Positions 44,168 to 63,033 of a stretch of 64,000 bases of DNA are shown one piece after another (positions within the stretch are counted from its first letter, which is position 1; each line of letters opens with the position of its first letter). The notes under the pieces are model-generated. The model did not search any database. It was given only the letters and a program-made list of their open reading frames with translations, and was not told the origin of the DNA. A program made the translations under genes and the position numbers. The stretch is from Poseidonibacter parvus (lineage in GTDB: Bacteria; Campylobacterota; Campylobacteria; Campylobacterales; Arcobacteraceae), in the NCBI RefSeq assembly GCF_001956695.1, contig NZ_CP019070.1, positions 496,001 to 560,000 on the forward strand, given 5' to 3'.

Positions 44168-44584
44168 TTATAAATCATCTGTTGGTAAAGTTTCAACCCA
44201 TGATCTAATTGACCAAATTGCAGCTGGTGATAATACTTCTCCAAATGGAGGCATATATACATTACCATTTCTAACAGCACCTTCTATAACTTTAGTAACA
44301 AAATATTCATCAATATCATCATCCCCTGCATCTAATGCTCTTAAATCAGGAGCAACACCACCTGAAACTGCACCTAAACCATGACATCTTGCACAGTTAG
44401 TATTATAAGCACCTTTCCCAATTTCTATTGCTTTTTCATTTCCTCTAAATGGATTAACTATTACATCATCTGCAACATTTGCTAAACCTTTAGTTTCTAC
44501 TGAATGTGGTACAACGTCTCCATGACCAAATGCTAATGTAGAAGTAGCTAATGCAACTAATACAACTTTTTTTAAACTTTTCAT
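44168..44584 (-). CDS. pedF: Cytochrome c550, PedF-like
   Basis: 138 residues. Signal peptide (about 1-20), then HGDVVPHSVETKGL and a single heme site CARCH (residues 64-68) followed by GGVAPDLRALD, and a probable distal Met in NVYMPPF. This closely follows PedF/ExaB-type cytochromes that take electrons from PQQ alcohol dehydrogenases in the periplasm. It is the probable electron acceptor of the 51517 enzyme. First gene of a two-gene operon with a GCTAT-box promoter. Confidence 0.87.
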   Translation of the reverse strand: MKSLKKVVLVALATSTLAFGHGDVVPHSVETKGLANVADDVIVNPFRGNEKAIEIGKGAYNTNCARCHGLGAVSGGVAPDLRALDAGDDDIDEYFVTKVIEGAVRNGNVYMPPFGEVLSPAAIWSIRSWVETLPTDDL

Positions 44585-44623: not shown

Positions 44624-44655
44624 AGTATATATTTATTTTATAGCTTGATTATAGC
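44624..44655 (-). promoter_or_regulatory. GCTAT-box promoter of pedF operon
   Basis: On the minus strand GCTAT-AATCAA-GCTAT (44655-44640), then 10 nt, then the -10 hexamer TATACT (44629-44624). The site covers the -35 region. Same geometry at five other promoters of the island. Confidence 0.82.
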
Positions 44656-44676: not shown

Positions 44677-44708
44677 GCTATAATCAGGCTATTTTCTTGC
44701 ATTACAAT
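44677..44708 (+). promoter_or_regulatory. GCTAT-box promoter of the 44733 ABC operon
   Basis: GCTAT-AATCAG-GCTAT (44677-44692), 10 nt, then TACAAT (44703-44708). Facing the pedF promoter in the same divergent region. The predicted transcript start (about 44715) rules out the longer reading frame of the next gene. Confidence 0.82.
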
Positions 44709-44732
44709 ATTGAAAATAAAGAAGGAATAATT

Positions 44733-45701
44733 ATGAAATTAAAACTAATAATTATATTATTTGCTACACTTATAAATCTTTTTGCAAATGAAAAAATCAA
44801 AATAGGTGTTTTAGCTTTTGGAACTGTAAATTGGGAATTAGAAGTTTTAAAACATAATAACTTTGATAAAAAATATGGAATTGAAGTAGAAGTAGTAAAA
44901 CTAGCTTCAAAAAATGCAGTGTCAATTGCTTTACAATCTAATAGTGTTGATGTTATTGTAAATGATTGGATTTGGGTAAATAGACAAAAAGCTTCTAATA
45001 AAGATATCTCTTTTTATCCTTATTCTAAAGCAGTTGGAGCTTTATATGTAAATGATAAGAAAATAAATTCTATTTTAGATTTAAAAGATAAAAAACTAGG
45101 AATTGCAGGTGGAAGTGTAGATAAAACATGGTTGTTATTTAGAGCTTATTCAAAAAAGATGTATGATAAAGATTTAAAAAATATGCTAGAACCTGTATTT
45201 GCGGCACCTCCTATTTTATATAAAAAGATGCTTGATAAATCTTTGAGTGCTGCAATTAATTTCTGGCATTTCAATGCCAAACTAGATTCAAAAAAAATGA
45301 AAAGACTGTTAGGTGTAAAAGAAATACTTAATGAGTTTAATATTAATAGTGATATTCCTTTAATTGGTTGGACATTTAATAGTGATTATGGAAGAAAAAA
45401 CATGAAAACTATTAATAGTTTTTTACAAGCCTCATATGAAACAAAAAAGCTATTAAGCACTTCAAGTGAAGAATGGATTAGAATAAAACCTTTAATGAAA
45501 GTAAAAAATGAGAAAATGTTTGAAGCTTTAAAAAATGGATATATAAATGGTACTGTAAAGAATTTTAATAAAGAACATATTGAAAGTTCAAAAAAAGTAT
45601 TTGATATTTTATATAAGGAAGGTGGAGAAAAACTTGTAGGAAAAAGTAAGTTTTTAGATGAAAAAATATTTTGGGATTTTACTCCAAATATTAAGTGGTA
45701 A
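44733..45701 (+). CDS. ABC transporter binding protein, NitT/TauT-like
   Basis: 322 residues with a signal peptide (about 1-18) and the NMT1/TauA-like fold (IKIGVLAFGTVNWELEVLKHNNFDKKYGIEVEVVKLAS, LQSNSVDVIVNDWIWVNRQ). The start at 44733 has GAAGGA before it and lies after the predicted promoter. It is first in an operon with a permease and an ATPase. Similar systems are found beside PQQ dehydrogenases; the ligand is unknown and could be a cofactor precursor, an alcohol-derived acid or a metal chelate. Confidence 0.8.
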   Translation: MKLKLIIILFATLINLFANEKIKIGVLAFGTVNWELEVLKHNNFDKKYGIEVEVVKLASKNAVSIALQSNSVDVIVNDWIWVNRQKASNKDISFYPYSKAVGALYVNDKKINSILDLKDKKLGIAGGSVDKTWLLFRAYSKKMYDKDLKNMLEPVFAAPPILYKKMLDKSLSAAINFWHFNAKLDSKKMKRLLGVKEILNEFNINSDIPLIGWTFNSDYGRKNMKTINSFLQASYETKKLLSTSSEEWIRIKPLMKVKNEKMFEALKNGYINGTVKNFNKEHIESSKKVFDILYKEGGEKLVGKSKFLDEKIFWDFTPNIKW

Positions 45702-45709
45702 AATAAAAA

Positions 45710-46444
45710 ATGCCAAGTCAAACTAGATTCCTTTCAATTTTAACTATATTTATCCTTTGGCAAACATTGGCATTACTTATATCTTCCGATACATTTCCAA
45801 CAGCTGTTTCTGTATTTAAAAGCCTTTTTTATCATATAAGTGAAGGTGAGCTTTTTTATCATTTAGGTATTACTTTATCAAGAGTTGCAATTACATTTTT
45901 CATTGCAATGAGTATTGGAGTTTTCTTTGGTATTTTAATGGGGGAATATAAAAGAATTGATAATTCTTTAGATACATTACTAGTAATTGGGTTGAATATT
46001 CCAGCACTTGTAACAATAATTATTTGCTATATTTGGTTTGGTTTAACAGATTTTGCAGCTTTATTAGCTGTTGTTTTAAACAAAGTTCCAACTGTAATAG
46101 TTACAATTAGAGAAGGTGCGAGAACAATTGATTTAAAATATATGCAAATAGCTCAAGTTTATAAAGTTTCAAAGTATGATACTTTTACAAAAATATATTT
46201 ACCTCAAATTTACCCATATATAATGGCTAGTGCTAGAACTGGGCTTTCACTTATTTGGAAGATAGTTTTAGTAGTTGAATTATTAGGAAGAAGTTCAGGT
46301 ATTGGATTTCAGTTGTCTATGTTTTTTCAGTTTTTTGATATTGAAAGTATTATGGCTTATTCTATGGCTTTTATTATTGTAATACTTTTAATTGAAACAT
46401 ATATTTTAAGACCCTTAGAGAAAAAAGCAAACAAGTGGAGATAA
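45710..46444 (+). CDS. ABC transporter permease, NitT/TauT-like
   Basis: 244 residues with six hydrophobic helices. The ATPase-contacting loop reads MQIAQVYKVSKYDTFTKIYLPQIYPYIMASARTGLSLIWKIVLVVELLG, typical of TauC/SsuC-type permeases. It starts 8 nt after the binding-protein gene and one base before the ATPase gene. Confidence 0.88.
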   Translation: MPSQTRFLSILTIFILWQTLALLISSDTFPTAVSVFKSLFYHISEGELFYHLGITLSRVAITFFIAMSIGVFFGILMGEYKRIDNSLDTLLVIGLNIPALVTIIICYIWFGLTDFAALLAVVLNKVPTVIVTIREGARTIDLKYMQIAQVYKVSKYDTFTKIYLPQIYPYIMASARTGLSLIWKIVLVVELLGRSSGIGFQLSMFFQFFDIESIMAYSMAFIIVILLIETYILRPLEKKANKWR

Positions 46445-46445
46445 G

Positions 46446-47168
46446 ATGTTAAGTATAAATATAAATTCAAAAAAATATCAAGAAAATAAAATAATTGATA
46501 ACTTTAAATTAAAAATTAACAAAAGCGAATTTATATCTATCATAGGACCATCAGGATGTGGGAAAACATCACTTTTAAATATAGTTTCAAATATTGATGA
46601 TGACTATTTAGGTTCTATATTATTTGATAATGAAAATATCTCTAAGAGTAATATTGGTGTAATGTTTCAAGACTCAAGAATCATTCCATGGCTTAGTGTT
46701 TTTGAAAATATCATGTTAGTTTCTATATCAAAAAATGAAGAAGAGATTAAAAATGCATTAATTGAAGTAGGTTTAAAAGATTATATAAACTCATATGCAA
46801 AAGAGCTCTCAGGAGGAATGCAAAGACGTGTTGCACTTGTACGTGCTTTTATAAATAAACCAGAAGTATTATTACTTGATGAACCTTTTATCTCTCTTGA
46901 TCATCCAACAGCTCAGAGTTTACGAAATGACTTTATGAGGTTTTACGAGAAGTATAAACCTACAGTTATATTAGTGACTCATGATTTAAAAGAAGCAATT
47001 ACTTTATCAAAAAGAATTGTTTTTTTAGATTCAAAACCTATGAAGGTTATTTTAGATTTTGAAAATAAAAAAGATTTCTCTTCTAATTTAGACTCTTTAG
47101 AAATTGAGCAAATAAAAGAGAATATCTTGTCAAAATATCCAAAAATATTAAGTGGAGATATAAGTTAG
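46446..47168 (+). CDS. ABC transporter ATPase, NitT/TauT-like
   Basis: 240 residues. Walker A GPSGCGKTS, Q-loop VMFQDSRIIPWLSVFENI (the usual TauB/SsuB form), signature LSGGMQRRVALVRAF, Walker B LLLDEPFISLD and switch His in LVTHDL. Last gene of the transporter operon; the 47174 gene converges on it with only five bases between. Confidence 0.9.
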   Translation: MLSININSKKYQENKIIDNFKLKINKSEFISIIGPSGCGKTSLLNIVSNIDDDYLGSILFDNENISKSNIGVMFQDSRIIPWLSVFENIMLVSISKNEEEIKNALIEVGLKDYINSYAKELSGGMQRRVALVRAFINKPEVLLLDEPFISLDHPTAQSLRNDFMRFYEKYKPTVILVTHDLKEAITLSKRIVFLDSKPMKVILDFENKKDFSSNLDSLEIEQIKENILSKYPKILSGDIS

Positions 47169-47173
47169 TATTT

Positions 47174-48322
47174 TTACTTCTTACACGCAACTTGATAAGA
47201 TGCAATACCTAAAGTATCCAAATCATTTGTAGGATGTAAAAAGCCATCTTGAGGTGATGTTGATACTAGTGCATTTGGCTGTACTAGAGCAACTGGCATT
47301 CTAATTTGTCCATTGAAATCTCTATATGTTAATTTTCTTCCTTTATAAGCTCCTAATTCAAAATCTTTTGAATAAATAAAATTTAAAGCAGTTTTCATAT
47401 CATTACTTTTTGTCTTAGTAATACTTGTAACAATTGTTCTAATAGCAATCCAAGCGGCAAAATCTTCATCTTCCATCCATCTTGAAGCAAACTTTTCAAA
47501 CCTTTTTTGCATTTGAGCTGCACCCCATTGTTCAATTACTTTATGCCAGGTTTTAGGCGTTAGTCCTTGTGTTCCAGCAAGTGGTCTTGGAAGCCAAGAA
47601 TTAAAATAAATAAACTCTCCAAAATCTCCATAATTATCTGCTGTTACTATTACATCATAATCCTTAGCTTGTGTAAATACAGGAATCTCATCAGCAGCTT
47701 TTCTTCTAATATCTGCATCATAAGTCCATTGCTTTTCTTCTACAATTTTTGCATTGAACTTTTTTACGGCTCTTTTAATATCTTTTGTAATTTGTAAATC
47801 TTTTTGCTTTGTTCCTGAAATTAAAAAGATATCTTTAAAATCTCTTTTTACCAAAAATTGAACTAATCCATCATATAACATTGCATTTGATGCAATTGTA
47901 TGTAAAAGATTTGTTTGACATAAGTTCTGTCTAAAATCAGAGTTCTTATTTGCAATATTAAAAAATACTGCTTTTTTAAATAAAGGATTATTTATAAGCT
48001 CTTGTAAAAAATCATCTTCAACTTTTAATAAAACAAAAGAGTTTTTCTCATTTATAAATTTTTCAAGTGAAGATAATAAATCTTTTTTATCAAATGAAAT
48101 CTTTTCAATTAAATTATATTTCTGATTTAAAAACCTTGCTGTTTTATTTGAATCTTTTACAGCAATTTTAGCTCCTTGTATTCCTAAATCATCCGGAATT
48201 TTAATTACATTTGATAAAACAGGAGGTCTTTTTATCTTTTGTTCTAAGTATAAGATATTTGTTTCTAGAATATCTGCTTTTATAAATGAAAATAAAAGTG
48301 TCAAAAATAGTACTATTTTCAT
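47174..48322 (-). CDS. PQQ-associated ABC-type binding protein, Leu/Ile/Val-like
   Basis: 382 residues with a signal peptide (about 1-16). It has the periplasmic receptor fold seen in the group of putative ABC binding proteins tied to PQQ alcohol dehydrogenase systems: GIQGAKIAVKDSNKTARFLNQKY, VIVTADNYGDFGEFIYFN, LAGTQGLTPKTWH and YKGRKLTYRDFNGQIRMPVALVQP. It is alone on its strand, divergent from the propeller/ABC operon, and has its own GCTAT-box promoter. Ligand unknown. Confidence 0.8.
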   Translation of the reverse strand: MKIVLFLTLLFSFIKADILETNILYLEQKIKRPPVLSNVIKIPDDLGIQGAKIAVKDSNKTARFLNQKYNLIEKISFDKKDLLSSLEKFINEKNSFVLLKVEDDFLQELINNPLFKKAVFFNIANKNSDFRQNLCQTNLLHTIASNAMLYDGLVQFLVKRDFKDIFLISGTKQKDLQITKDIKRAVKKFNAKIVEEKQWTYDADIRRKAADEIPVFTQAKDYDVIVTADNYGDFGEFIYFNSWLPRPLAGTQGLTPKTWHKVIEQWGAAQMQKRFEKFASRWMEDEDFAAWIAIRTIVTSITKTKSNDMKTALNFIYSKDFELGAYKGRKLTYRDFNGQIRMPVALVQPNALVSTSPQDGFLHPTNDLDTLGIASYQVACKK

Positions 48323-48345: not shown

Positions 48346-48377
48346 AGTATATATTATTTTTATAGCTTCAGTTTAGC
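48346..48377 (-). promoter_or_regulatory. GCTAT-box promoter of the 47174 gene
   Basis: Minus-strand GCTAA-ACTGAA-GCTAT (48377-48362), 10 nt, then TATACT (48351-48346). It forms a back-to-back pair with the site of the 48450 operon. Confidence 0.78.
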
Positions 48378-48389
48378 AAAATATATATT

Positions 48390-48421
48390 GCTAAACTCAG
48401 GCTATAATTATTTACTACACT
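48390..48421 (+). promoter_or_regulatory. GCTAT-box promoter of the 48450 operon
   Basis: GCTAA-ACTCAG-GCTAT (48390-48405), 10 nt, then TACACT (48416-48421). Predicted transcript start about 48428, 22 bases before the first gene. Confidence 0.78.
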
Positions 48422-48449: not shown

Positions 48450-48869
48450 ATGAAAAAAATTGCAATGTTAGTAATGATGGTATTTATAACAGCAGAGTTT
48501 GCAAGTGCAAAGAATTTAAAGGGTTTATTACACTCAAGAACTACATTAGCACCTATTAATATTAGTGCAGGTGAACCATTAGCTACAGAACCTTATAAAT
48601 TAGAAGCAGGTAAGTACTACAAGTTAGTTTTAAAAAGTGATGGTTCAAGAGAAGTTCCAATTGTTGGAGCTGAATTTTTTAGAAATATCTGGGTAAATCA
48701 AGTATCTATTAATGATATTGAAGTAAGACCATTAGGAATTGATAGTTTTGAATTTGATGATGAAGGTGAGATTGAACTTACATTTATTCCAATTAAACCT
48801 GGAACTTTTACTTTAGGTTTACCAACTGCTAAAAGTGATAGAGAAAGAGCTATTATTATAGTTGAATAA
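48450..48869 (+). CDS. Unknown periplasmic beta-rich protein of the PQQ island
   Basis: 139 residues with a signal peptide (MKKIAMLVMMVFITAEFASA). The rest looks like a small beta-sandwich, LEAGKYYKLVLKSDGSREVPIVGAEFFRNIWVNQV and an end FIPIKPGTFTLGLP that recalls cupredoxins, but there is no Cys or His to bind copper. First in an operon with the propeller protein and an ABC transporter. Homologues accompany such systems; function unknown. Confidence 0.65.
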   Translation: MKKIAMLVMMVFITAEFASAKNLKGLLHSRTTLAPINISAGEPLATEPYKLEAGKYYKLVLKSDGSREVPIVGAEFFRNIWVNQVSINDIEVRPLGIDSFEFDDEGEIELTFIPIKPGTFTLGLPTAKSDRERAIIIVE

Positions 48870-48902
48870 AAATTGTTAATAAAATATTTAAGGAGATAAA
48901 AA

Positions 48903-49862
48903 ATGCTAAAGAAAATTGGATTAGTCACTATTTTAAGCTCAGCTCTATTTGCAGATACAATATTTGTATCAAATGAAAAAGACAATACTATTTCTGTAAT
49001 TGATTCAGTTACAAATGAAGTTGTTAAAACTTATGAAGTAGGTCAACGACCTAGAGGAATAACTCTTACAAAAGATTATTCAAAACTATATATTTGTGCA
49101 AGTGATGATGATACTGTTCAAGCAATGGATACTAAAACTGGGAAGATTTTATATAATCTTCCTTCAGGAGAAGATCCAGAACAGTTTTCATTACACCCAG
49201 ATGGAACTGAACTTTATATTTCAAATGAAGATGATGGTATTGTAACAGTTGTAGATACTGTAAATAAAACTGTTATAAAACAAATTGAAGTTGGAATTGA
49301 GCCTGAAGGTATGGCTGTAAGTCCTGATGGATCTGTAGCTATTAATTCATCTGAAACATCTAACTTTTTGCATTGGATTGATACAAAAACTAAAGAAATT
49401 GTACATAATACTTTAGTAGATGAAAGACCTAGACATATTGAGTTTTCAAAAACTGGAGATAAAGTTTGGGCATCAAGTGAAATTGGTGGAACTGTAATCA
49501 TTCTTGATACAAAAACAAAAGAATCACTTGGTAAAATTTCTTTTAAAATTCCAGGTATTTATAAAGACAAAATTCAGCCAGTTGGTATTAAACTAACAAG
49601 CGATGGGAAATATGCTTTTGTAGCCCTTGGGCCTGCAAATCATGTAGCTGTAGTTGATGCTAAAACTTATGAAGTTATTAAGTATTTGTTAGTTGGTAAA
49701 AGAGTTTGGCAATTAGACTTGGCAAACAATGAAACAAAACTGTATACTACTAATGGTGTTAGTTCAGATGTATCAATTATTGATGTAGAATCTTTAAAAG
49801 TTGAAAAAACAGTAAAAGTAGGAAGATTCCCATGGGGAATTGCAGTTAAACCAACAAAGTAG
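48903..49862 (+). CDS. PQQ-associated YVTN beta-propeller protein
   Basis: 319 residues: signal peptide (about 1-18) then about seven repeats of the YVTN type (DTIFVSNEKDNTISVIDSVTNEVVKTYEVGQRPRGI, ELYISNEDDGIVTVVDTVNKTVIKQIEVGIEPEGMAVSPDG). This matches the propeller protein that goes with ABC genes in PQQ-dependent alcohol degradation. It acts in the periplasm, perhaps as the partner of the transporter. Lies 5 nt before the ATPase gene. Confidence 0.86.
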   Translation: MLKKIGLVTILSSALFADTIFVSNEKDNTISVIDSVTNEVVKTYEVGQRPRGITLTKDYSKLYICASDDDTVQAMDTKTGKILYNLPSGEDPEQFSLHPDGTELYISNEDDGIVTVVDTVNKTVIKQIEVGIEPEGMAVSPDGSVAINSSETSNFLHWIDTKTKEIVHNTLVDERPRHIEFSKTGDKVWASSEIGGTVIILDTKTKESLGKISFKIPGIYKDKIQPVGIKLTSDGKYAFVALGPANHVAVVDAKTYEVIKYLLVGKRVWQLDLANNETKLYTTNGVSSDVSIIDVESLKVEKTVKVGRFPWGIAVKPTK

Positions 49863-49867
49863 GTCAA

Positions 49868-50587
49868 ATGACAAATCAACTTGAAATAAAAAATGTTTCT
49901 TATAAATATGATAAAGATTTAGTTTTAAAAAATGTAAATCTAAATATAAAACAAGCATCATTCTTAGTCCTTCTTGGACTAAATGGTGCTGGAAAATCTA
50001 CTCTTTTTGCACTAATTACTAGATTGCTTAAACTTCAAGATGGTGATATCTTGATTGACTCTTTTCCTCTTTCAAATTATAAAAAAGCCTTAGAAAATAT
50101 CGGTATTGTTTTTCAAGAACCAACACTTGATTTAGATTTGACTGTAAAACAAAATCTAATATTTTATGGTTCTTTAAAAGGAATATCTTTTAAAGAAACA
50201 ATGAATTCAATAAAAGATGAACTAAAAACATTAGAATTAGAAGAAAAATTAGATGTAAAAGTTCGTGCTTTAAATGGTGGTCATAGAAGAAGAGTTGAGA
50301 TTTTAAGAGCTTTAATAAATAATCCTAAACTACTTTTATTAGATGAAGCAACTTCAGGTCTTGATATAAAAAGTAGATACTCAATAATCTCTTATGTAAA
50401 AGATATTGTAAAAAAAAGAGGAATTTCTGTTTTATGGATTACACATTTATTTGATGAAATAAATGAAAATGATGATGTTGCTATTATCAAAAAAGGTGAA
50501 ATAATTGCAAGTGGAATTGTAAAAGATGTAATTGAACAAAACAACAAAGATTCATTAACTGAAGTTTTTGAATACTTAACTAAGTAA
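49868..50587 (+). CDS. PQQ-associated ABC transporter ATPase
   Basis: 239 residues. Walker A GLNGAGKST, Q-loop VFQEPTLDLDLTVKQNL, a divergent signature LNGGHRRRVEILRAL, Walker B LLLDEATSGLD and switch His in WITHLFDE. This DrrA/CcmA-like form belongs to exporters. With the 50617 permease it forms a transporter usually found next to PQQ dehydrogenases; comparable Ped proteins of Pseudomonas are proposed to export alcohols or intermediates. Confidence 0.88.
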   Translation: MTNQLEIKNVSYKYDKDLVLKNVNLNIKQASFLVLLGLNGAGKSTLFALITRLLKLQDGDILIDSFPLSNYKKALENIGIVFQEPTLDLDLTVKQNLIFYGSLKGISFKETMNSIKDELKTLELEEKLDVKVRALNGGHRRRVEILRALINNPKLLLLDEATSGLDIKSRYSIISYVKDIVKKRGISVLWITHLFDEINENDDVAIIKKGEIIASGIVKDVIEQNNKDSLTEVFEYLTK

Positions 50588-50616
50588 AAGCAAAAGTGAA
50601 AGTAGAGAAATGAGAA

Positions 50617-51399
50617 ATGAGAAAATTATATTACTGTGCCTTAGGAATTATTTACAAAGAATTATTAAGATTTATCAAACAAAAAAGTAGGTTTTTTTCA
50701 GCACTTGTAAGACCTTTACTTTGGCTATTTATTTTTTCAGTTGGATTTAAATCAGCACTAGGCCTTGCAATTATTCCACCATATGAAACATATATAACTT
50801 ATGAAACATACATTGTGCCTGGTCTTGTTGGAATGATTTTACTTTTTAATGGAATGCAAAGCTCCTTAGCTATGATTTTTGATAGAGAAATGGGTTCTAT
50901 GAAAATACTTTTAACTTCAAATATTTCAAGGTCATATCTTCTATTTTGTAAAATGTTTGCAACTGGTATAGTTTCAACAATTCAAGCTACAGTATTTTTA
51001 TTTATTGCTTTTTTATATGGAATTGATATTCCAACTTTAGGATATTTTCTAGTAATTCCTGTGATTTTATTTACTTCAATTATATTGAATGCTTTTGCTT
51101 TATTTATCTCTTCTGTTATAAAACAACTTGAAAATTTTGCTTCAGTTATGAACTTTGTAATCTTTCCAATGTTCTTTTTATCTTCAGCTTTATATCCATT
51201 ATGGAAGATAAAGGATTCTAGCTTGTTTTTATATGAAGTTTGTGTATTAAATCCATTTACTTATATAGTTGAATTTGTAAGATTTACACTTTATTTAAAA
51301 TTTGATTTAAATACTTTTTTAATTATTTTAGGAATCTTTATAATTACACTAACACTCGCTTTTATAGGATATAACACTAAGAATGTACTAAAAAGATAG
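50617..51399 (+). CDS. PQQ-associated ABC-2 type permease
   Basis: 260 residues with six hydrophobic helices and the ABC-2 form (RPLLWLFIFSVGFKSAL, YIVPGLVGMILLFNGMQSSLAMIFDREMGSMKILLTSNISR, LENFASVMNFVIFPMFFLSSALYPLWK). It is like PedC and forms the exporter with the ATPase 29 nt upstream. The substrate is unknown. Confidence 0.86.
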   Translation: MRKLYYCALGIIYKELLRFIKQKSRFFSALVRPLLWLFIFSVGFKSALGLAIIPPYETYITYETYIVPGLVGMILLFNGMQSSLAMIFDREMGSMKILLTSNISRSYLLFCKMFATGIVSTIQATVFLFIAFLYGIDIPTLGYFLVIPVILFTSIILNAFALFISSVIKQLENFASVMNFVIFPMFFLSSALYPLWKIKDSSLFLYEVCVLNPFTYIVEFVRFTLYLKFDLNTFLIILGIFIITLTLAFIGYNTKNVLKR

Positions 51400-51436: not shown

Positions 51437-51468
51437 CCTATATTCAGGCTATATTTCTCATGTATACT
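51437..51468 (+). promoter_or_regulatory. GCTAT-box promoter of the alcohol dehydrogenase
   Basis: CCTAT-ATTCAG-GCTAT (51437-51452, one mismatch in the first half), 10 nt, then TATACT (51463-51468). The spacer TTTCTCATGTA is almost the same as before the aldehyde dehydrogenase (AATCTCATGTA). Confidence 0.82.
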
Positions 51469-51516: not shown

Positions 51517-53283
51517 ATGGGGAAGAGTAAATTTCTTAATAATGTAGCAAAAGTTACATTATCAACATTACTAAGTGCAAGTGCAATAACTGCATTATCA
51601 GCTAATGCAGGTTTTGCACCTGTAACTGATGCAGATATTGCAAATGATGCAAAAACTGTTGAAGATGTAGTAACATATGGTTTAGGTCAAAAAGGTCAAA
51701 GATATTCACCTTTAGATCAAATTAATAAAAAGTCAATCAAAGATTTAGTTCCAGTATGGAATTTTTCATTTGGTGGTGAAAAGCAAAGAGGTCAAGAAGC
51801 GCAACCTTTAGTTAAAGATGGTGTTATGTATGTAACTGCATCTTATTCTAGAATGTATGCTATTGATTTAGCAAGTGGTGAAGAACTATGGCAATATGAT
51901 GCTAGACTTCCTGGTGCTATTTTACCTTGTTGTGATGTTATCAATAGAGGTCCAGCACTATATGAAAACTTAGTAATTTTTGGAACATTAGATGCAAAAC
52001 TTGTTGCACTTGATAGAAAAACTGGAAAAGTTAAATGGAAGAAGAAAATAGCTAACTATAAAGATGGTTATTCTTATACAGCAGCTCCTTTAATTGTAAA
52101 AGGTTTATTAATTACAGGAAATTCTGGTGGTGAGTTTGGTGTTGTTGGACAATTAGATGCAAGAAACCCATTAACAGGTGAACTTGTATGGACTAGACCA
52201 ATGGTTGAAGGACATATGGGAACATTAAATGGTAAAGATAATGGAATCACAGGTCAAACAAATGCAACATGGCCAGCTGATTTATGGAAACATGGTGGTG
52301 CTGCTCCTTGGAATGGTGTAACTTATGATCCTGATGCTGATTTAATTTATGTTCCAACAGGAAATCCATCTCCATGGAATTCACATGATAGACCGGGTGA
52401 TAACCTTTATTCTGCTTCAAGAGTAGCAATTAATCCAGATACAGGAAAAATTGTTTGGCATTTCCAAACAACTCCAAATGATGGTTGGGATTATGATGGT
52501 ATTTCTGAACTAGTTGCTTTTGAATATAAAGATAAAGCAGGTAAAACAATTAAAGCAGGAGCAACAGCTGATAAAAATGGTTTCTTCTATGTATTAGATA
52601 GAGTTACAGGTAAATATATCAGATCAGTACCTTTTGTAGAAAATATAACATGGGCAAAAGGAATGGATAAAGACGGTCGTCCAATAGTAAATGAAGATAA
52701 TAGACCTGGAAAACCAAGTGCTGATAAAAAAGGTAAAACTGTTTACTCAACACCTTCATTCTTAGGTGGTAAAAACTGGAATCCAATGGCTTATTCACAA
52801 GATACTGGATTATTCTATGTTCCTGCAAATGAGTGGGGAATGGATATTTGGAATAAACCTGTTGCATATAAAAAAGGTGCTGCTTATTTAGGTGCTGGAT
52901 TTACAATTAAACCAACATTTGAAGATCACATTGGTGCTTTAAAAGCAGTTGATCCTAAAACTGGTGAGATTAAATGGACTTATAAAAATAAAGCTCCATT
53001 ATGGGGTGGTGTTTTAACTACTGCTGGTGGACTTGTATTTACAGGAAATCCTGAAGGTAAGTTAATGGCATTTGATGACCAAACTGGTGAAATTGTTTGG
53101 CAATTTAATGTTGGTACTGGTATTGTAGGTTCTCCAATTACTTGGAGTACAGATGGTGTTCAATATATCGCTGTAGTTGCAGGTTGGGGTGGAGCTGTTC
53201 CTTTATGGGGTGGTGAAGTTGCAAAAACTGTTAAGTATTTAAACCAAGGTGGATCAGTTCACGTGTTTAAATTACACAAATAA
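51517..53283 (+). CDS. PQQ-dependent alcohol dehydrogenase, lanthanide-type signature
   Basis: 588 residues. Signal peptide (cleavage near residue 30), then an eight-bladed PQQ propeller with tryptophan-docking repeats and no heme domain, so a type I quinoprotein. The adjacent Cys138-Cys139 form the ring disulfide over PQQ. Metal ligands Glu206 (GGEFG) and Asn283 (TGNPSPWN) are present, and the catalytic Asp325 is followed by Asp327 in GWDYDGISE. Asp at that place marks lanthanide-dependent enzymes (XoxF, ExaF, PedH); calcium enzymes have Ala, Ser or Thr there. It oxidises primary alcohols in the periplasm and passes electrons to cytochrome c, here probably the PedF-like protein. pqqA follows after 36 nt with no terminator. 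Ethanol or longer alcohols are the likely substrates, but the exact range is open. Confidence 0.92.
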
Positions 53284-53499: not shown

Positions 53500-54417
53500 T
53501 TGAAAATTCAAGTTTTAGGCTCTGGTGCAGGAGGAGGTCTTCCTCAATTTAATTGTAACTGTGATAATTGTAAAGCATATAGAGCAGGTTCAAAAACAGT
53601 AAAAAGAAGAACTCAAAGTTCTATTACAGTTAGTGAAGATGGTGTTAATTGGGTTTTATTTAATACTTCACCAGATATTTTAGAGCAAATACATAATTCT
53701 CCTTTTTTACATCCTTCAGAATTAAGAGAAACAAAAATAAAAGCTATTATTTTTAATGATGGACAAATTGACCATACAACTGGGCTTTTAATGTTACGTG
53801 AAGGCTGTCCTCATGAGGTATACTGTACAAAAGAAGTAAATGAAGAACTATCAACATCTTTCCCATTGTTTAAAATGCTTGAGCATTGGGGTGGAGGTGG
53901 TACAAAATGGAATGAAATTCTTCCAGATAGCACAACAAAGTTTGAAATACCTGTGATGCCTTCTTATGAATTTTATGCACATGCATTAATTTCAAATGCA
54001 CCACCATATTCAAAATATCGAGATATACCTAGAAAAGGTGATAATATTGGAATTACTGTAGTAAATAAAAATACTGGAAAAAGATTATTTTATCTTCCTG
54101 GACTTGGAGTTTTAGAAGACCATGTTTTCGAAGAAATGAAAAAAGCAGATGTCTTACTAATAGAAGGAACTCTTTGGACAAATGATGAAATGATTAAAGG
54201 TAAGTTCTCAAACAAACTTGGAACAGATATGGGACATATTCCTTTAAATGGAGAGCATGGTTTGATTAAAGTTTTAGATACTTTAGAAAAACCAAGAAAA
54301 ATATTAATTCATATTAATAATACAAATCCTATTTTAGATGAAGCAAATGATGAATATAAAGAGCTTATCTCACATGGAATTGAAGTTTCATATGATGGTA
54401 TGAGTATTGAAATTTAA
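53500..54417 (+). CDS. pqqB: PQQ biosynthesis protein PqqB
   Basis: 305 residues from a TTG start with AAAGGA upstream. Metallo-beta-lactamase fold: [18 protein letters not shown] near the start with the extra zinc Cys, [32 protein letters not shown] and [10 protein letters not shown]. It oxidises (hydroxylates) the peptide-derived Tyr during PQQ synthesis. First of four tightly linked genes pqqBCDE. Confidence 0.95.
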
Positions 54418-54434
54418 AGATAAAGGAAATAAAT

Positions 54435-55175
54435 ATGAGTGAATTATTAAGTAAAGAAGATTTTGAAAAAAAACTAAAAGATATGGGATCAATGTATCAT
54501 ATTCATCATCCTTTTCATGTAAGAATGTATGAGGGGTCTTGTACTAAAGAAGAGATACAAGGTTGGGTTGCTAATAGATTTTATTACCAATGTGCAATTC
54601 CAATAAAAGATGCTGCTATTATGTCAAATAATCCTCCTATTGAAGATAGAAGAAAATGGGTTGATAGAATACTAGATCATGATAGTGTTGGTGGTGGAAT
54701 TGAAGCTTGGCTTGATTTAGGAGTTGCAGTTGGTTTAAAAAAAGAAGATTTAGAATCTCATAAATTTGTATTACCAGCTGTTAAATTTGCAGTTGATGCT
54801 TATGTTAATTTTGCAAGAAGAAGTCCATGGAAAGAAGCTGCAATGTCATCTTTAACTGAAATGTTTGCACCTCAAATTCATCAACAAAGATTAGACACTT
54901 GGCCTAAAAATTATCCTTGGATAGAACAAAATGGTTTAAGATATTTTCAAAAAAGATTAAGTGAAGCTAGACGTGATGTTCAACATGGTCTTTCAATGAC
55001 TTTAGTTGAATTTGACACAGTAGAGTTACAAAATAGAGCTTGTGAAATACTACAGTTTAAATTAGATATTCTATGGACAATGTGTGATGCTTTATATTTA
55101 GCATATGAATTAAAAAGACCACCATATTTTAATATTAAGGATTGTAATGCAACTAGAAAAATCACTTGCAATTAA
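54435..55175 (+). CDS. pqqC: Pyrroloquinoline-quinone synthase PqqC
   Basis: 246 residues, all-helical. [42 protein letters not shown], and [14 protein letters not shown] carry the active-site His, Arg and Tyr. It closes the ring and carries out the final eight-electron oxidation to PQQ without a metal. Overlaps pqqD by 29 bases. Confidence 0.96.
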
Positions 55176-55416
55176 TGCGCACTTTCAATTACAATGGGAA
55201 GAAAAACAAAATTGTTTCGTATTATTATATCCAGAAGGAATGGTTCAATTAAGCCAAAGTGCTGGTGAGATTATGAATTTATGTAATGGAGAAAATACAA
55301 CTTTAAATATTACAGATTTACTAGAAAAAAAATTTAATTTAGTTGGTTTACAAAGTGATATTATAGAGTTTTTAGAAGACGCAATGAATAGAAAGTGGGT
55401 AATTTATAATGACTAA
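55147..55416 (+). CDS. pqqD: PqqA-binding chaperone PqqD
   Basis: 89 residues, the usual PqqD length. [21 protein letters not shown] is the conserved core. It holds PqqA and presents it to PqqE. The gene overlaps pqqC (29 bases) and pqqE (8 bases), so translation of the three is coupled. Confidence 0.92.
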
Positions 55417-56509
55417 TGAAATAAAACCTCCGTTATGGATACTTTTGGAATTAACACATAAATGTCCTTTAGAATGTTCATACTGTTATAACCAATTAGA
55501 TTTTACAAATACAAAAGATGCTATGAGTAAAGCTGATTGGTTTAGAGTTATGGATGAAGCAAGAGATATGGGTGCTGTTCAGCTTGGAATTTCTGGTGGA
55601 GAGCCACTTTTAAATAAAGACTTAGTTGAAATTGTAGAGTATGCAAATAATAAAAAGTTTTATACAAACCTTATTACTTCTGGTGTTGGTGCTCCAAAAG
55701 GAATTGTAAAAAAGCTAAAAGAAGCAGGACTTAAAACTGTGCAATTAGGTATTCAATCTCATGATAGAAATACTATGACATTGATTACTAATAATAAAAA
55801 TTCATATGATGAAAAAATTGCCTTTGCCAAAGAAGTTAAAGAAGCAGGGCTTCAACTTATAATTAATACTTGTATAACAAGACAAAATATTCATCAAGTA
55901 GGTGAAATTATTGAGTTTGCAGATGAACTTGAAGGAAACTATTTAGAAATTGCAAATATTCAATATTATGGATGGGCATTAAAAAATATAAATGCACTTC
56001 TTCCAACACAAGAGCAGTTAGATGAAGCAAAAAGAGTAACAGATTCTTACAGAAGTAAAGAAAAAGCTATGAAAGTATTTTTTGTAGTTCCTGATTATTT
56101 TGCAGATCGTCCAAAAGCATGTATGAATGGATGGGGAACAACTTTCTTAACTATTAATCCAGACGGTGTTGCACTTCCATGTAATACAGCAAATACTTTA
56201 CCATTAGAGTTTCCAAATGTAAAAGAGTTTTCAATTGAACAAATTTGGAATGAATCTCATGCTTTCAATTATTTCAGAGGTGATAGCTGGATGAATCCAA
56301 CATGTGCCTCATGTGATGAAAAAGAGAAAGATTTTGGAGGGTGTCGATGTCAAGCCTTTGCACTTACAGGCGATATGAATGAAGCTGATCCTGTTTGTTC
56401 AAAATCTGATTTTCATCATGTAGTTACTGATAAAGTTGCTGAAAGTTTGGGTACTACAGATGCAAAGATATGGTACAGAAATAGAAAAAATTCACTATTA
56501 CTTTCTTAG
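55409..56509 (+). CDS. pqqE: PqqA peptide cyclase PqqE (radical SAM)
   Basis: 366 residues. Radical SAM motif CPLECSYC (Cys19, 23, 26), GISGGEPLLN, and a SPASM region with CMNGWGTTFLTINPDGVALPC and CASCDEKEKDFGGCRCQAF holding two more Fe-S clusters. It links Glu16 and Tyr20 of PqqA by a carbon-carbon bond. A terminator follows. No pqqF-type protease gene is seen in the window; peptide trimming must use a protein coded elsewhere. Confidence 0.96.
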   Translation: MTNEIKPPLWILLELTHKCPLECSYCYNQLDFTNTKDAMSKADWFRVMDEARDMGAVQLGISGGEPLLNKDLVEIVEYANNKKFYTNLITSGVGAPKGIVKKLKEAGLKTVQLGIQSHDRNTMTLITNNKNSYDEKIAFAKEVKEAGLQLIINTCITRQNIHQVGEIIEFADELEGNYLEIANIQYYGWALKNINALLPTQEQLDEAKRVTDSYRSKEKAMKVFFVVPDYFADRPKACMNGWGTTFLTINPDGVALPCNTANTLPLEFPNVKEFSIEQIWNESHAFNYFRGDSWMNPTCASCDEKEKDFGGCRCQAFALTGDMNEADPVCSKSDFHHVVTDKVAESLGTTDAKIWYRNRKNSLLLS

Positions 56510-57241: not shown

Positions 57242-57366
57242 AATAATCCTACTTGTAAAACTTAAGCACCATTGTATTGATTTTTTTAAATTAGTTCTTC
57301 TTATTTATTGCTATAATAATGTTCTATTTGTGCTAATTTATTGGTTTGTTTGTGTTAAAATATATT

Positions 57367-58267: not shown

Positions 58268-58287
58268 AAAGACCTAATTAGGTCTTT
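58268..58287 (-). terminator. Terminator of the FIST kinase/regulator operon
   Basis: Perfect 8-bp stem AAAGACCT (58268-58275) with AGGTCTTT (58280-58287) and a 4-nt loop, overlapping the end of the regulator gene. On the minus strand TTTTTATCTTTATTT follows. Confidence 0.78.
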
Positions 58288-58933
58288 CTACCATATAGCC
58301 ACTTCCTCTAATATTTTTAATAAAATCTTCTTTTAAAACTTTTTTTACTCTATTTACTTCTGCTCTTATTGTTGCATTATCTATAAAGTCATCATTCCAT
58401 ACATAGTTTCTAAACATATCATATTGAACAACTAAAGATCTATTATGTGCTAGTAACTCAATAATTTGTATTTGTCTTTTTGGTAGAATATGAGGTTCAT
58501 TATTAAACAATAAAGTCATAGTTTCTGAATCATAAGAATAATTCTTTGATAGTCTTTTATGTCGTTGAGGAACAATAGTTGTTTTTAAAATCTTGTTTAT
58601 TCTAATAGTTAACTCTTTTAAATGAAATGGTTTTTTCAAATAATCATGACAGCCAATATCAAAGGCTCTTGAAATATCTTCAATTTCAATAAGTGCTGAT
58701 ATATAAATTGTTGGAATCATTCTTTTTTGTTCATGTAAACTTTCTAATATTGTAAAACCATTAATATCAGGTAAGTTAATATCTAAGATTAACAAGTCAA
58801 ATTTTTCTTCACTTAAAGTTTGTATACACTCTTTTCCTGTAGTTGCACTTTTTACAACATGTCCTGTTGAGCCTAAGTATTCACTTATCATCTCATTTAA
58901 CATTACGTCATCTTCTAATAGTAATATTTTCAT
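58274..58933 (-). CDS. OmpR-family response regulator of the PQQ island
   Basis: 219 residues. Receiver domain with LLEDD, phospho-Asp51 in LLILDINLPDING and Lys in KKPFHL; a winged helix of the OmpR/PhoB type (about 125-219) with QIQIIELLAHN, IRAEVNRVKKVLKE and IRGSGYMVE. It overlaps the FIST kinase gene by 4 bases. PhoB-type proteins bind direct repeats spaced 11 bp just upstream of the -10, which is exactly the form of the GCTAT boxes here, so it is the prime candidate to bind them. That link is inference. Confidence 0.9.
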   Translation of the reverse strand: MKILLLEDDVMLNEMISEYLGSTGHVVKSATTGKECIQTLSEEKFDLLILDINLPDINGFTILESLHEQKRMIPTIYISALIEIEDISRAFDIGCHDYLKKPFHLKELTIRINKILKTTIVPQRHKRLSKNYSYDSETMTLLFNNEPHILPKRQIQIIELLAHNRSLVVQYDMFRNYVWNDDFIDNATIRAEVNRVKKVLKEDFIKNIRGSGYMVERPN

Positions 58934-60843
58934 TTTATTTCCTTAAATATATATGTAAATGATGCCCAGTTTTCACCTGACTCTAGTTGTATACCAACAT
59001 TTTCTTCACTACAAATTCTTTTTACTAGATTTAACCCAAGTCCAAAACCTTCTTGGTCACTTATTTGTTCTCTATAATACTCTTCAAATATTTTTTGTTG
59101 ATCTAGTATTTGCTTTGAACGACTTTCAATTACTAAATAACAATCTTGGTTTAAAACATTCATTTTTACTTTTATTGTTTCATTTGGTAGTGAATATTTA
59201 ATTGCATTTGTAAGGTTATTATCTACAATTCTTTGAAGTTTAATTTCATTAAAGTTTAATAGTATTATTTTTCTTTGCGATGAGAAGTCAAAATTACATT
59301 TAAATTTTATTGCAGATTGTGAGAAGAAATCAATTCTTGATCTTACAAAATCAACAAGGTTTATTTCATGTGTTGCTTCATTGACTTGATTTTTTTTAAT
59401 TAAATAGCTTAAGTCATCATATATACTTGAAATATTTTTCATAGCAACTTCAATATTCGTCATATGTTTATTTTTACCACTTTCCATTTCATACATTTCA
59501 ATATTCCCCATAATAATTGATAAAGGAGTATTTGTTTCATGAACTGCATGTTTTAGAAATTGTTTTTGAGAATCTACTAGATTTTGCGCATAAATCTTTC
59601 CTTCTTCTAGTTCTTTTGATTGTTCATTATAATCTTTTGATGATTGTTGTATTAAATGAGTCAAGGCTTGTAAACTTCTCGCATGTTCACTTATTGGCTG
59701 ATTTGATGTTTGAATATCACATGATATTTTTTTATTTGTATCATTAATTTTCTCACTTAAAGCAACAATAGTAAATGTTTGATTTAGTAATTCATTATGT
59801 CCATTATCATGATAAAACTCTCCATAAGTAAAGAAACCTGAAGTAGGGGCGATTTGTGAAAAAGGCTTTATTTCAATTTCAACCATACTTGGCATATATC
59901 TTCTTCTTGCCATACATGAGTAAATGAAAAAAGATTGAGTGTCTTTTATATTACATGTATCAAATAATGACTCTAAGGGATTACTCATGATAAGTTCTAC
60001 ATTACCAAAACCTAATTTTACATTATCTCCTTCATATAAATTACCTGCAAAACTAAGACTTCCATCTTTGTGTTTATTTATAACAGCACGTGCTACTGGT
60101 AAACCATTTCTATGTGCAATTAATGGAAATTCAATTCCAGTAGCTGGAAGTGCTTTTGCTACATACTCTCCTAAATACTTTTCATAAAAGTCTAAAGGTT
60201 TCATTCCTGATATTTGATACACTCTATTATCTTTAACTTTATCAATAGTATGTTCTATTCCAATTGGTGACCAATTAAAATTGTAAGCATTACAAACTTT
60301 TAATGTTTTGGAGTTTAAAGCAACTCCTACTGCACCATTTATAATAACTTCACCTTGTGAAGAAACAAAGGTTTGTGTAAAGTTTGCATTATCACCTGCC
60401 ATTCCTCCTGAAACTATTACCTTATTATTTACAGATTGAATACCTTTTATAAAAGCTTCACCATTTGTCTTTGCACCATCAGAAAATGTAATAAGAAGTT
60501 TAGTATCTTCTTTGCATAACTTTTGAGCTAATTCAACACCATTTGTAAAAGAGTCTTTTTTTCTTACAAAAGTTGTTTCTAATGTAGTGTTTTCAAATAT
60601 TGAAATAGAAATAATTGTATGGCAAGTTGTTACTTTACTATTATTAATTTCTCCATCAGTAGATGAACCTATACAAATAGCTTGTGGAAGTTTTTCTAAT
60701 AATTGTGTTGCAATTACTTTTAATACATTTTTATTGTGTCCGCAAAAAATTTGTATTAGAATGTTTTTTTCTTTTTTTAATAATGAAAAGTCTATTAATA
60801 TATCTAAGTCTTCTTCATTATATGTATAGTTAAATGTTTTCAT
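58930..60843 (-). CDS. FIST-domain sensor histidine kinase
   Basis: About 637 residues, no membrane helix, so cytoplasmic. FIST N domain (about 25-215: AICIGSSTDGEI, LLITFSDGAKTNGEAFIKGI, VSGGMAGDNANF), FIST C domain (about 215-355: FYEKYLGEYVAKALPATGIEFPLI, FFIYSCMARRRYM), a coiled linker, then the His in KHAVHETNTPLSIIMGN and an ATPase domain with NNLTNAIKYSLP and GFGLGLNLVKR. FIST domains are thought to bind small ligands. FIST kinases (ErcS'-like) govern ethanol oxidation in Pseudomonas. The start is uncertain: 60858 is five codons longer; a TACAAT just upstream of 60843 hints at a leaderless start. Confidence 0.85.
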   Translation of the reverse strand: MKTFNYTYNEEDLDILIDFSLLKKEKNILIQIFCGHNKNVLKVIATQLLEKLPQAICIGSSTDGEINNSKVTTCHTIISISIFENTTLETTFVRKKDSFTNGVELAQKLCKEDTKLLITFSDGAKTNGEAFIKGIQSVNNKVIVSGGMAGDNANFTQTFVSSQGEVIINGAVGVALNSKTLKVCNAYNFNWSPIGIEHTIDKVKDNRVYQISGMKPLDFYEKYLGEYVAKALPATGIEFPLIAHRNGLPVARAVINKHKDGSLSFAGNLYEGDNVKLGFGNVELIMSNPLESLFDTCNIKDTQSFFIYSCMARRRYMPSMVEIEIKPFSQIAPTSGFFTYGEFYHDNGHNELLNQTFTIVALSEKINDTNKKISCDIQTSNQPISEHARSLQALTHLIQQSSKDYNEQSKELEEGKIYAQNLVDSQKQFLKHAVHETNTPLSIIMGNIEMYEMESGKNKHMTNIEVAMKNISSIYDDLSYLIKKNQVNEATHEINLVDFVRSRIDFFSQSAIKFKCNFDFSSQRKIILLNFNEIKLQRIVDNNLTNAIKYSLPNETIKVKMNVLNQDCYLVIESRSKQILDQQKIFEEYYREQISDQEGFGLGLNLVKRICSEENVGIQLESGENWASFTYIFKEIK

Positions 60844-60934
60844 AAAATATTGTATCATATATATTGAAAAATTAGAAGAAAAAAATCGTGTTAAAAGTAC
60901 CTAAAATTGGGAAATTGTAACAAAAAAACGCAGC

Positions 60935-60988
60935 GCTATATTCAAGCTATACAATAGCTATAATTAGGCTATAAATCTCATGTAGAAT
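60935..60988 (+). promoter_or_regulatory. Double GCTAT-box promoter of the aldehyde dehydrogenase
   Basis: Four GCTAT half sites at 60935, 60946, 60957 and 60968, each exactly 11 bp apart, so two full boxes (60935-60950 and 60957-60972). After 10 nt comes TAGAAT (60983-60988). The spacer AATCTCATGTA matches that before the alcohol dehydrogenase. Confidence 0.85.
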
Positions 60989-61060: not shown

Positions 61061-62557
61061 ATGGCATACGCTAAACCTCAATATAAAGAACAATTTGAAA
61101 ATTTCATCGGTGGAGAATGGGTTGCACCATTAAGTGGAGAATATTTTGATAATATCTCACCTGTAGATGGAGAAGTTCTTACAAGAATTCCAAGATCAAA
61201 TGAAGCTGATGTAGATGCAGCAGTTGCAGCTGGTATGGTTGCTTTTGAATCATTCAAGCATTCTACAGTAATTGAAAGATCAACTATGTTAAATAAAATT
61301 GCAGATGCAATTGAAGAAAACTTAGAAGCTTTAGCAATTGCTGAAACTTTAGATAATGGTAAAGCAGTAAGAGAAACACTTGCAGCTGATGTACCTTTAG
61401 TTGTTGATCACTTTAGATATTTTGCATCTGTTATTAGAGGTGAATCTGGTGATGTTTCTGACTTAGACGAAAATACAATTTCTCAAGAAATTCATGAGCC
61501 TTTAGGTGTTGTTGCTCAAATTATTCCATGGAACTTCCCATTATTAATGGCAGCTTGGAAAATTGCACCAGCATTAGCAGCAGGAAATGCAGTTGTATTA
61601 AAGCCAGCATCAGCGACTCCAATGTCAATTTTAATGTTAATGGAAACAATTCAAGAAGTTCTTCCAAAAGGTCTTGTTAATATTATTAATGGTGCTGGTG
61701 GAAAAATTGGTAAGCATTTATCAACTCATCCAGATATCAAAAAAGTTGGATTTACAGGAGAAACTACAACTGGTCAATTAATTATGCAGTATGCAACTGA
61801 GAATATTATTCCTTCTACATTAGAACTTGGTGGTAAATCGCCAAATATTTTCTTAGAATCAATTATGGATAAAGATGATGAATTCTTCGATAAAGCAATC
61901 GAAGGTTTAGTATTATTCGCATTTAACTCAGGTGAAGTTTGTACAGCACCAACTAGAGCATTAATTCAAGAATCAATTTATGAGCCATTTATGAAAAGAT
62001 GTTTAGAAAGAATTGAAGCAATTACACAAGAAAACCCATTAGATCCAACTACTAAAATGGGTGCACAGTGTTCAGTTTCACAAAAAGAGAAAATTCTTTC
62101 TTATATTAAAATTGGTAAAGATGAAGGTGCTGAGTGTTTAATTGGTGGTGAAGCTTATGATAATAAAACTTTCCCTAATGGAAACTATATCAAGCCTACA
62201 ATCTTTAAAGGTCATAACAAAATGAGAATCTTCCAAGAAGAAATTTTTGGACCAGTTTTAGCAGTAACTACTTTTAAAACAGAAGAAGAAGCACTTGAAA
62301 TTGCAAATGACACTATCTACGGATTAGGTTCAGGAGTATGGTCAAGAGATGCTCACCAATTACATAAATTCTCAAGAGGAATTGAAGCTGGTAGAGTTTG
62401 GGTAAATTGTTACCACATGTACCCATCTCATGCATCATTTGGTGGATATAAAAAATCAGGAATCGGAAGAGAAACTCACATGATGATGTTAAACTCTTAC
62501 AGACACACAAAAAATATCTTAACATCTTACTCAAAAGATGCTATGGGATTCTTCTAG
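61061..62557 (+). CDS. NAD-dependent aldehyde dehydrogenase, ExaC/AldB type
   Basis: 498 residues. Motifs: IIPWNFPLLMAAWKIAPALAAGN for NAD binding, GFTGETTTG, catalytic Glu255 in TLELGGKSPN and catalytic Cys294 in NSGEVCTAPTR. The stretch between them is 39 residues, longer than in ALDH2 and typical of ExaC/AldB. It oxidises the aldehyde from the PQQ enzyme to the acid in the cytoplasm. The DUF779 gene that follows is the usual partner of this subfamily. Its promoter has the strongest GCTAT-box array in the window. Confidence 0.93.
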   Translation: MAYAKPQYKEQFENFIGGEWVAPLSGEYFDNISPVDGEVLTRIPRSNEADVDAAVAAGMVAFESFKHSTVIERSTMLNKIADAIEENLEALAIAETLDNGKAVRETLAADVPLVVDHFRYFASVIRGESGDVSDLDENTISQEIHEPLGVVAQIIPWNFPLLMAAWKIAPALAAGNAVVLKPASATPMSILMLMETIQEVLPKGLVNIINGAGGKIGKHLSTHPDIKKVGFTGETTTGQLIMQYATENIIPSTLELGGKSPNIFLESIMDKDDEFFDKAIEGLVLFAFNSGEVCTAPTRALIQESIYEPFMKRCLERIEAITQENPLDPTTKMGAQCSVSQKEKILSYIKIGKDEGAECLIGGEAYDNKTFPNGNYIKPTIFKGHNKMRIFQEEIFGPVLAVTTFKTEEEALEIANDTIYGLGSGVWSRDAHQLHKFSRGIEAGRVWVNCYHMYPSHASFGGYKKSGIGRETHMMMLNSYRHTKNILTSYSKDAMGFF

Positions 62558-62652: not shown

Positions 62653-63033
62653 ATGAGTATAGAAAGAGTAGCTATAACTCCTGCAGCAGCAGATGTAGTT
62701 GAAAGATTAAAAAAAGAAAATGGCGAGTTAGTATTTAACCAAAGTGGCGGTTGCTGTGATGGAACAGCTCCTATGTGTTATGCTAAAAGTGATTTTTATG
62801 TTCCAAGTAGAAATGTTAAGTTAGGTGAAGTATGTGGAGTTGAGTTTTTTATTGATAAAGACCAGTTTGAATACTTTAGACATTCTCATATTACTATTGA
62901 TGTTAAAGAAGAAAAGGGTGCTTTTGGTAATTCTTTTTCTCTAGAGATTGATTTAGGTTATCAGTTTATTACCGTTTCACGGATTTTTACTGATGAAGAA
63001 TATAATCAGTTAAGCCCTGAAGAGAAAAAATAG
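62653..63033 (+). CDS. DUF779 family protein
   Basis: 126 residues. QSGGCCDGTAPMCY, with three Cys, is the mark of this family, which is found next to acetaldehyde dehydrogenases in many bacteria. The Cys set suggests metal or thiol chemistry, perhaps sensing or buffering aldehyde, but no function is established. The start has AAAGGA upstream. Confidence 0.85.
   Translation: MSIERVAITPAAADVVERLKKENGELVFNQSGGCCDGTAPMCYAKSDFYVPSRNVKLGEVCGVEFFIDKDQFEYFRHSHITIDVKEEKGAFGNSFSLEIDLGYQFITVSRIFTDEEYNQLSPEEKK

Follow-up and report, generated by a model that had tools for sequence, protein, structure and literature searches.

FIST kinase and OmpR-type regulator as likely controllers of the GCTAT boxes at the ethanol-oxidation island of Poseidonibacter parvus

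Which regulator acts on the GCTAT boxes that precede the alcohol and aldehyde oxidation genes of Poseidonibacter parvus? The window analysed here, a stretch of 64,000 nucleotides, carries an island of such genes which is the Campylobacterota counterpart of the Pseudomonas ped/exa set. Within it, the genes of a FIST-domain sensor kinase and an OmpR-type regulator share a 4-bp overlap (Table 1). In our judgement it is likely that these two proteins switch the alcohol and aldehyde oxidation genes through the GCTAT boxes, by the mechanism proposed below.

The gene pair, its island and the GCTAT boxes

The original prediction placed both genes at the correct coordinates, and their domains and coupling are seen by Pfam. 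The regulator matches the receiver and Trans_reg_C models with E-values of 1.1e-25 and 2.5e-10, each above gathering score, and reaches 93 bits with the NCBIfam PhoB equivalog, below the cut-off of 296. Residues T188, I189, R190, E192, N194, R195 and K197 are invariant in an alignment of 62 orthologue rows. The kinase is apparently soluble, with the FIST region fused to the kinase; this region scores 62 bits with the NosP equivalog, far short of the cut-off of 450. H203 and C315 are invariant across the FIST kinases compared, and the closest named relatives of the island kinase are found in Poseidonibacter lekithochrous and P. ostreae. The P. parvus genome, a single contig of 2.87 Mb, holds 39 Trans_reg_C matches and three FIST proteins. 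The claim that this is the only OmpR-type regulator holds within the island (another one, 38433-39134, lies about 4 kb beyond the island edge) but not for the genome, which has two paralogues elsewhere with a near-identical recognition helix.

The best solved match of the island dehydrogenase is the quinoprotein ethanol dehydrogenase 6zcv (859 bits). Its WDYDG motif aligns with the Asp-containing WDFDG of 6zcv and not with WDFSG of 1flg, and this Asp motif marks the enzyme as lanthanide-type. Relatives carry a second dehydrogenase, about 52% identical and with WDFSG (L272, L273, L287, L288, L289, L291, L292), and GCTAT boxes are present at both dehydrogenase types, WDYDG and WDFSG.

Table 1. 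Features of the gene pair, its boxes and the island genes (window positions)
Feature	Position	Strand	Basis
OmpR/PhoB-type response regulator, recognition helix NATIRAEVNRVKK	58274..58933	-	Pfam Response_reg + Trans_reg_C
FIST/FIST_C sensor histidine kinase	58930..60858	-	Pfam FIST + FIST_C + HisKA + HATPase_c
Four GCTAT half-sites in 11-bp steps (two tandem dimers)	60935..60972	+	sequence
-10 element TAGAAT, N10 past the last GCTAT of the array	60983..60988	+	sequence
ExaC-like acetaldehyde dehydrogenase	61061..62557	+	NCBIfam ExaC, 814 bits (cut-off 900)
DUF779 protein, after the aldehyde dehydrogenase	62653..63033	+	Pfam PF05610
Box CCTAT-N6-GCTAT-N10-TATACT, precedes PQQ ethanol dehydrogenase	51437..51468	+	strict-pattern match
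PQQ ethanol dehydrogenase, lanthanide-type (WDYDG)	51517..53283	+	best solved match 6zcv; motif
pqqB, pqqC, pqqD, pqqE	53500..56509	+	NCBIfam
Box GCTAA-N6-GCTAT-N10-TACACT, precedes 48450-51399 operon	48390..48421	+	strict-pattern match
Operon: small protein, PQQ-associated beta-propeller, alcohol ABC transporter ATPase, PedC-like permease	48450..51399	+	TIGR03866, TIGR03864, TIGR03861
Box GCTAA-N6-GCTAT-N10-TATACT, precedes PQQ-system substrate-binding protein gene	48346..48377	-	strict-pattern match
PQQ-system ABC substrate-binding protein	47174..48322	-	TIGR03863, above cut-off
Box GCTAT-N6-GCTAT-N10-TACAAT, precedes NMT1-type ABC transporter genes	44677..44708	+	strict-pattern match
ABC transporter operon (NMT1-type): substrate-binding protein, permease, ATPase	44697..47168	+	
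Box GCTAT-N6-GCTAT-N10-TATACT, precedes cytochrome c550 pedF	44624..44655	-	strict-pattern match
Cytochrome c-550 PedF	44168..44584	-	TIGR04494, above cut-off

Six island promoters follow the pattern [GC]CTAW-N6-GCTAT-N10-TANANT, in which the box ends exactly 10 nt ahead of the -10 element; five are the single boxes of Table 1, and in the sixth the last pair of the four-repeat array 60935-60972 makes up the box. The PhoB box, too, lies 10 bp from the -10. At the NMT1-type transporter operon, the TTG listed as start codon overlaps the -10 element, and an ATG at about 44733 is likelier. With at most one mismatch, GCTATN6GCTAT has 10 matches in the window, as compared to 3.6 +/- 1.7 expected, and none of 100 shuffles reached 10. 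In its strict form, with N10 and -10, the box occurs six times in the 2.87 Mb genome, exclusively in the island, while a reversed-pattern control gave no match in the 104 Arcobacteraceae genomes scanned. Looser boxes with N10 and -10 are also found beyond the island, at G000:177256-177287 and G000:2275066-2275097, both on the minus strand. An extra exact site at G000:363551 (GCTATATTTAGGCTAT) gives no strict-pattern match with N10 and -10, and no gene is linked to it.

Where the search did not demand a -10, 54 of the 58 kinase-side arrays have TA...T at offset 10, and no other offset holds more than 7. A -10-like hexamer was likewise found at offset 10 in 141 of 166 box sites and in about 4 at other offsets; since many of these 166 loci were retrieved with the N10 pattern itself, the count over the 58 arrays is the fair test of the offset. 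The Pho-box form that had been ascribed to the boxes, i.e., 11-bp direct repeats with N10 to the -10 and no -35, is thus confirmed. The four-repeat array is kept in most orthologous loci, with a spacing of 11-11-11 in 44 and of 11-12-11 in five of them. The step inside a dimer is 11 bp in 49 out of 49 four-repeat arrays and that between dimers 11 or 12 bp, which is what two dimers should give.

The stretch that separates the array from the start of the kinase gene contains, at 60914-60925, the element TTGTAACAAA, which is similar in several genera and on the minus strand offers the kinase operon a -10-like hexamer, TACAAT. The array may therefore also affect the expression of the regulator itself.

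Co-occurrence of the boxes and the gene pair

A close orthologue of kinase and regulator is present in 62 of the 104 family genomes. The strict box was found in 35 of the 104, all of which carry such an orthologue, and in none of the 42 family genomes that are without it (Fisher P 4.8e-11 without correction for relatedness, a value that overstates independence given the kinship within a family). The PQQ dehydrogenase, present in 31 family genomes, is likewise confined to the 62 with the orthologue. In nine single-contig genomes, each of the 34 strict sites lies at most 27 kb from the kinase. Distant FIST kinases (about 35-40% identity) were left out of this analysis; among the loci listed, they have no recognisable adjoining OmpR-type partner. 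The original prediction had drawn the link between regulator and boxes from form and proximity alone, and this co-occurrence now supports the pair as the likely controllers. G453 apart, co-occurrence over the whole family is non-independent evidence.

Nearly all orthologous loci whose upstream sequence is long enough show the array, about 90-140 bp ahead of the start of the kinase gene and oriented towards the divergent aldehyde dehydrogenase gene. This kinase-side array is kept in many genomes without the PQQ dehydrogenase, so that the regulator, its array and the aldehyde dehydrogenase seem to form the core of the system, with the ethanol island as an addition. The acetaldehyde dehydrogenase is the probable ancestral target. 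In two genomes (G041 and G042) the kinase is relocated, and the boxes still precede the target genes. G075 has the dehydrogenase without a strict box; its dehydrogenase contig stops 78 bp upstream, and a box with a different spacer precedes the aldehyde dehydrogenase. In the apparent exception G066, the locus ends at a contig edge.

Beyond the Arcobacteraceae, strict boxes were found singly in five genomes (397 genomes sampled from the class). The single boxes of G332 and G346 look like chance matches, and the box of G303 adjoins an acetate-type pair. G453, a member of another family, encodes a kinase and a regulator 55% and 67% identical to those of the island downstream of pqqE, with boxes on the island contigs, and its regulator falls inside the FIST-regulator clade. 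The island boxes are also present in G389, a genome of the same genus, in which no FIST kinase was found and 14 kb downstream of the dehydrogenase are masked, at the place where its sister G453 carries the FIST pair and pqq genes; for this reason, G389 cannot be scored as a case of boxes without a kinase. More independent support comes from G453, outside the family, and from the trans-acting cases with relocated kinases. Near the island of G389, two outer-membrane-type beta-barrel genes also have GCTAT boxes (L314:11372 and L314:12976) and are possible additions to the regulon.

Proposed mechanism and known systems

From the gene pair, the boxes with their geometry, and their conservation and co-occurrence, we infer phosphotransfer, regulator binding, activation rather than repression, and the nature of the signal as follows. 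The FIST kinase would respond to a signal from the metabolism of short-chain alcohols or aldehydes by phosphorylating the OmpR-type regulator, which would then form a head-to-tail dimer on GCTAW-AHTCAR-GCTAT, with its half-sites 11 bp, i.e., one helical turn, apart. Ending 10 nt ahead of the -10, the box would replace the -35, and from this position the regulator would recruit sigma-70 RNA polymerase in the manner of PhoB (class II activation). The acetaldehyde dehydrogenase operon would be activated from the four-repeat site, occupied by two dimers. Where the PQQ island is present, the cytochrome c550, the PQQ alcohol dehydrogenase and the transporters would be activated as well, and probably pqqBCDE. 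As to the signal, our favoured guess is a short aldehyde, since of all targets only the aldehyde dehydrogenase persists without the PQQ enzyme and since aldehyde-related neighbours are shared.

The principle is already known in the order Campylobacterales, where gel shifts demonstrated binding of the OmpR-type regulator PceP of Sulfurospirillum to CTATW repeats that are spaced by multiples of 11 bp and cover the -35 region; in the pceAB promoter, CTATA-N6-CTATA-N6-CTATA overlaps the -35 (PMC7755780). In box form, the island sites match these CTAT repeats, and in both systems the regulator genes lie beside the regulated region. However, PceS is a membrane kinase without a FIST domain, the consensus was given as CTATW-N17-CTATW, and the system controls tetrachloroethene respiration. 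Helices of other types may read CTAT repeats as well, a point against the proposed link between pair and boxes. Together with the array beside the kinase in the absence of the PQQ island and the complete unit in another family, the PceP precedent (PMC7755780) further supports the link between pair and boxes. PHO boxes consist of two 11-nt direct repeats to which binding is head-to-tail (PMC4415409). They share with the island boxes the repeat length and the replacement of the -35, and differ in the repeat itself, CTGTCAT, and in the signal, phosphate.

A different situation is found in Pseudomonas. It had been proposed that FIST kinases act there in ethanol oxidation control with LuxR-type regulators, so that the wiring in P. 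parvus would be a different one. The regulators are indeed LuxR-type and the wiring does differ, but the term FIST kinase is inexact: the FIST protein NosP (PP_2663/PA1975), encoded in the ped cluster, and the hybrid kinase PedS1/ErcS' are two distinct proteins (PMC12997753). The ped/exa system (NosP, PedS1/ErcS', AgmR/ErbR, PedS2-PedR2) resembles the island in its PQQ alcohol dehydrogenase, PedF cytochrome, Ped ABC transporter and ExaC, and in that a FIST protein and a kinase are encoded in the cluster. In P. parvus, in contrast, the FIST domain is part of the kinase and the island regulators are of the OmpR and AraC types. Fusion of FIST to the kinase, together with an OmpR-type partner, thus sets this wiring apart from that of Pseudomonas. 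For an abundant family of marine bacteria, the ethanol-oxidation island hereby receives a probable regulator, a candidate binding site and a target list, and FIST-domain kinases, for which a signal has so far been known only from separate NosP-type proteins, gain a concrete pathway for the ligand search.

Paralogous regulators, spacers and alternative controllers

Among the 39 regulators of the genome, the helix motif TIRAE is restricted to three, namely the island regulator, that of a second FIST kinase-OmpR pair (G000:2515852-2518418; L197:2516-5085) and that of an acetate locus. The second-pair regulator (G000:2517771-2518418) is 67% identical to the island one, and its helix, NATIRAEVNRLKK, agrees in 12 of 13 residues; no box was found upstream of the kinase of this pair. 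The acetate-locus regulator (G000:690669-691316), 56% identical and with the helix NPTIRAEISRLKK, is paired with an upstream sCache_2 kinase gene, and its system shows GCTAY-N6-GCTAY-N10 before a -10 ahead of an acetate-type symporter and pta-ackA. The two systems have in common the paralogous regulator, the GCTAT core, the 11-bp step and the N10 to the -10, and differ in the Cache-type sensor, the targets and the spacer, which ends in T at acetate-type boxes and reads AHTCAR at island boxes. From the spacer letters alone, a leave-one-out classifier assigned 56 of 60 island and 15 of 16 acetate sites, counted as distinct sites, to their own class, the list of acetate sites being compiled by hand. 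The acetate paralogue, with the same core box and another spacer, thus offers a natural case for studying how regulators are insulated on near-identical DNA.

These paralogues are the most obvious candidates for another control of the island. Judged from its helix, the second-pair regulator could share or take over the island sites, and with a kinase that has no box of its own upstream, a double input to the island sites is conceivable; we regard this as possible, though short of probable. The second pair is missing from most box-carrying genera, so it could only add to the control, and as the general regulator it is ruled out. Control by the acetate-locus pair, alone or shared, appears quite improbable: the helix is similar and the sites have the same GCTAT core, but the paralogue is family-wide, including genomes without an island box, and the two classes of boxes are separable by their spacers. 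The AraC-type regulator 57346-58242, which is located in the island and carries a GyrI-like ligand domain, is scarcely credible as the box regulator. Its closest relatives lie mostly far from the island and also occur in box-free genomes, its relatives in some box-carrying genomes are at most 59% identical, and 11-bp GCTAT repeats with N10 to the -10 are no AraC pattern; without island linkage elsewhere, this candidate was discarded.

A further alternative concerns the mode of action and the signal rather than the regulator. The regulator might repress at rest, or the FIST domain might report nitric oxide or haem status instead of alcohol or aldehyde. The FIST protein NosP binds haem and senses NO (PMC12570481), it sits in the Pseudomonas ped cluster (PMC12997753), and the island kinase matches the NosP model weakly. 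However, a box at the -35 position and at the exact PhoB-type distance fits activation, and the targets belong to alcohol and aldehyde oxidation, with none of NO metabolism, so that we hold this alternative to be unlikely. Activation by the island pair remains our preferred reading.

On a wider scale, one may speculate, with more doubt than confidence, about a small group of paralogous OmpR-type regulators in the Arcobacteraceae with one common core, GCTAT, repeated every 11 bp and placed 10 nt upstream of the -10, the six-base spacer being the main means of discrimination. Successive steps of a single pathway would be divided among them: the FIST pair, with FIST as an aldehyde sensor, would then serve alcohol and aldehyde oxidation to acetate, and the Cache pair acetate uptake and Pta-AckA. 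In several loci, sites of the Cache-kinase/OmpR type read TGCTAY-N5-TGCTAY-N10 followed by a -10 (L200, L201, L313, L318, L319, L328, L329, L340, L341); pair and sites suggest an acetate regulon that is apparently undescribed. A divergent FIST-regulator pair in G066 (L271:4462-8724) has the altered helix TITSEIYRLKK, and a variant box, GCCAT-N6-GCGAT-N10-TATACT, stands ahead of a divergent indolepyruvate/phenylpyruvate (keto-acid) decarboxylase gene. This single example of an altered helix with an altered box would agree, in the direction expected, with the helix reading the half-site. The neighbours of the G066 pair also include aminotransferase and aldehyde dehydrogenase genes, the latter in the decarboxylase block.
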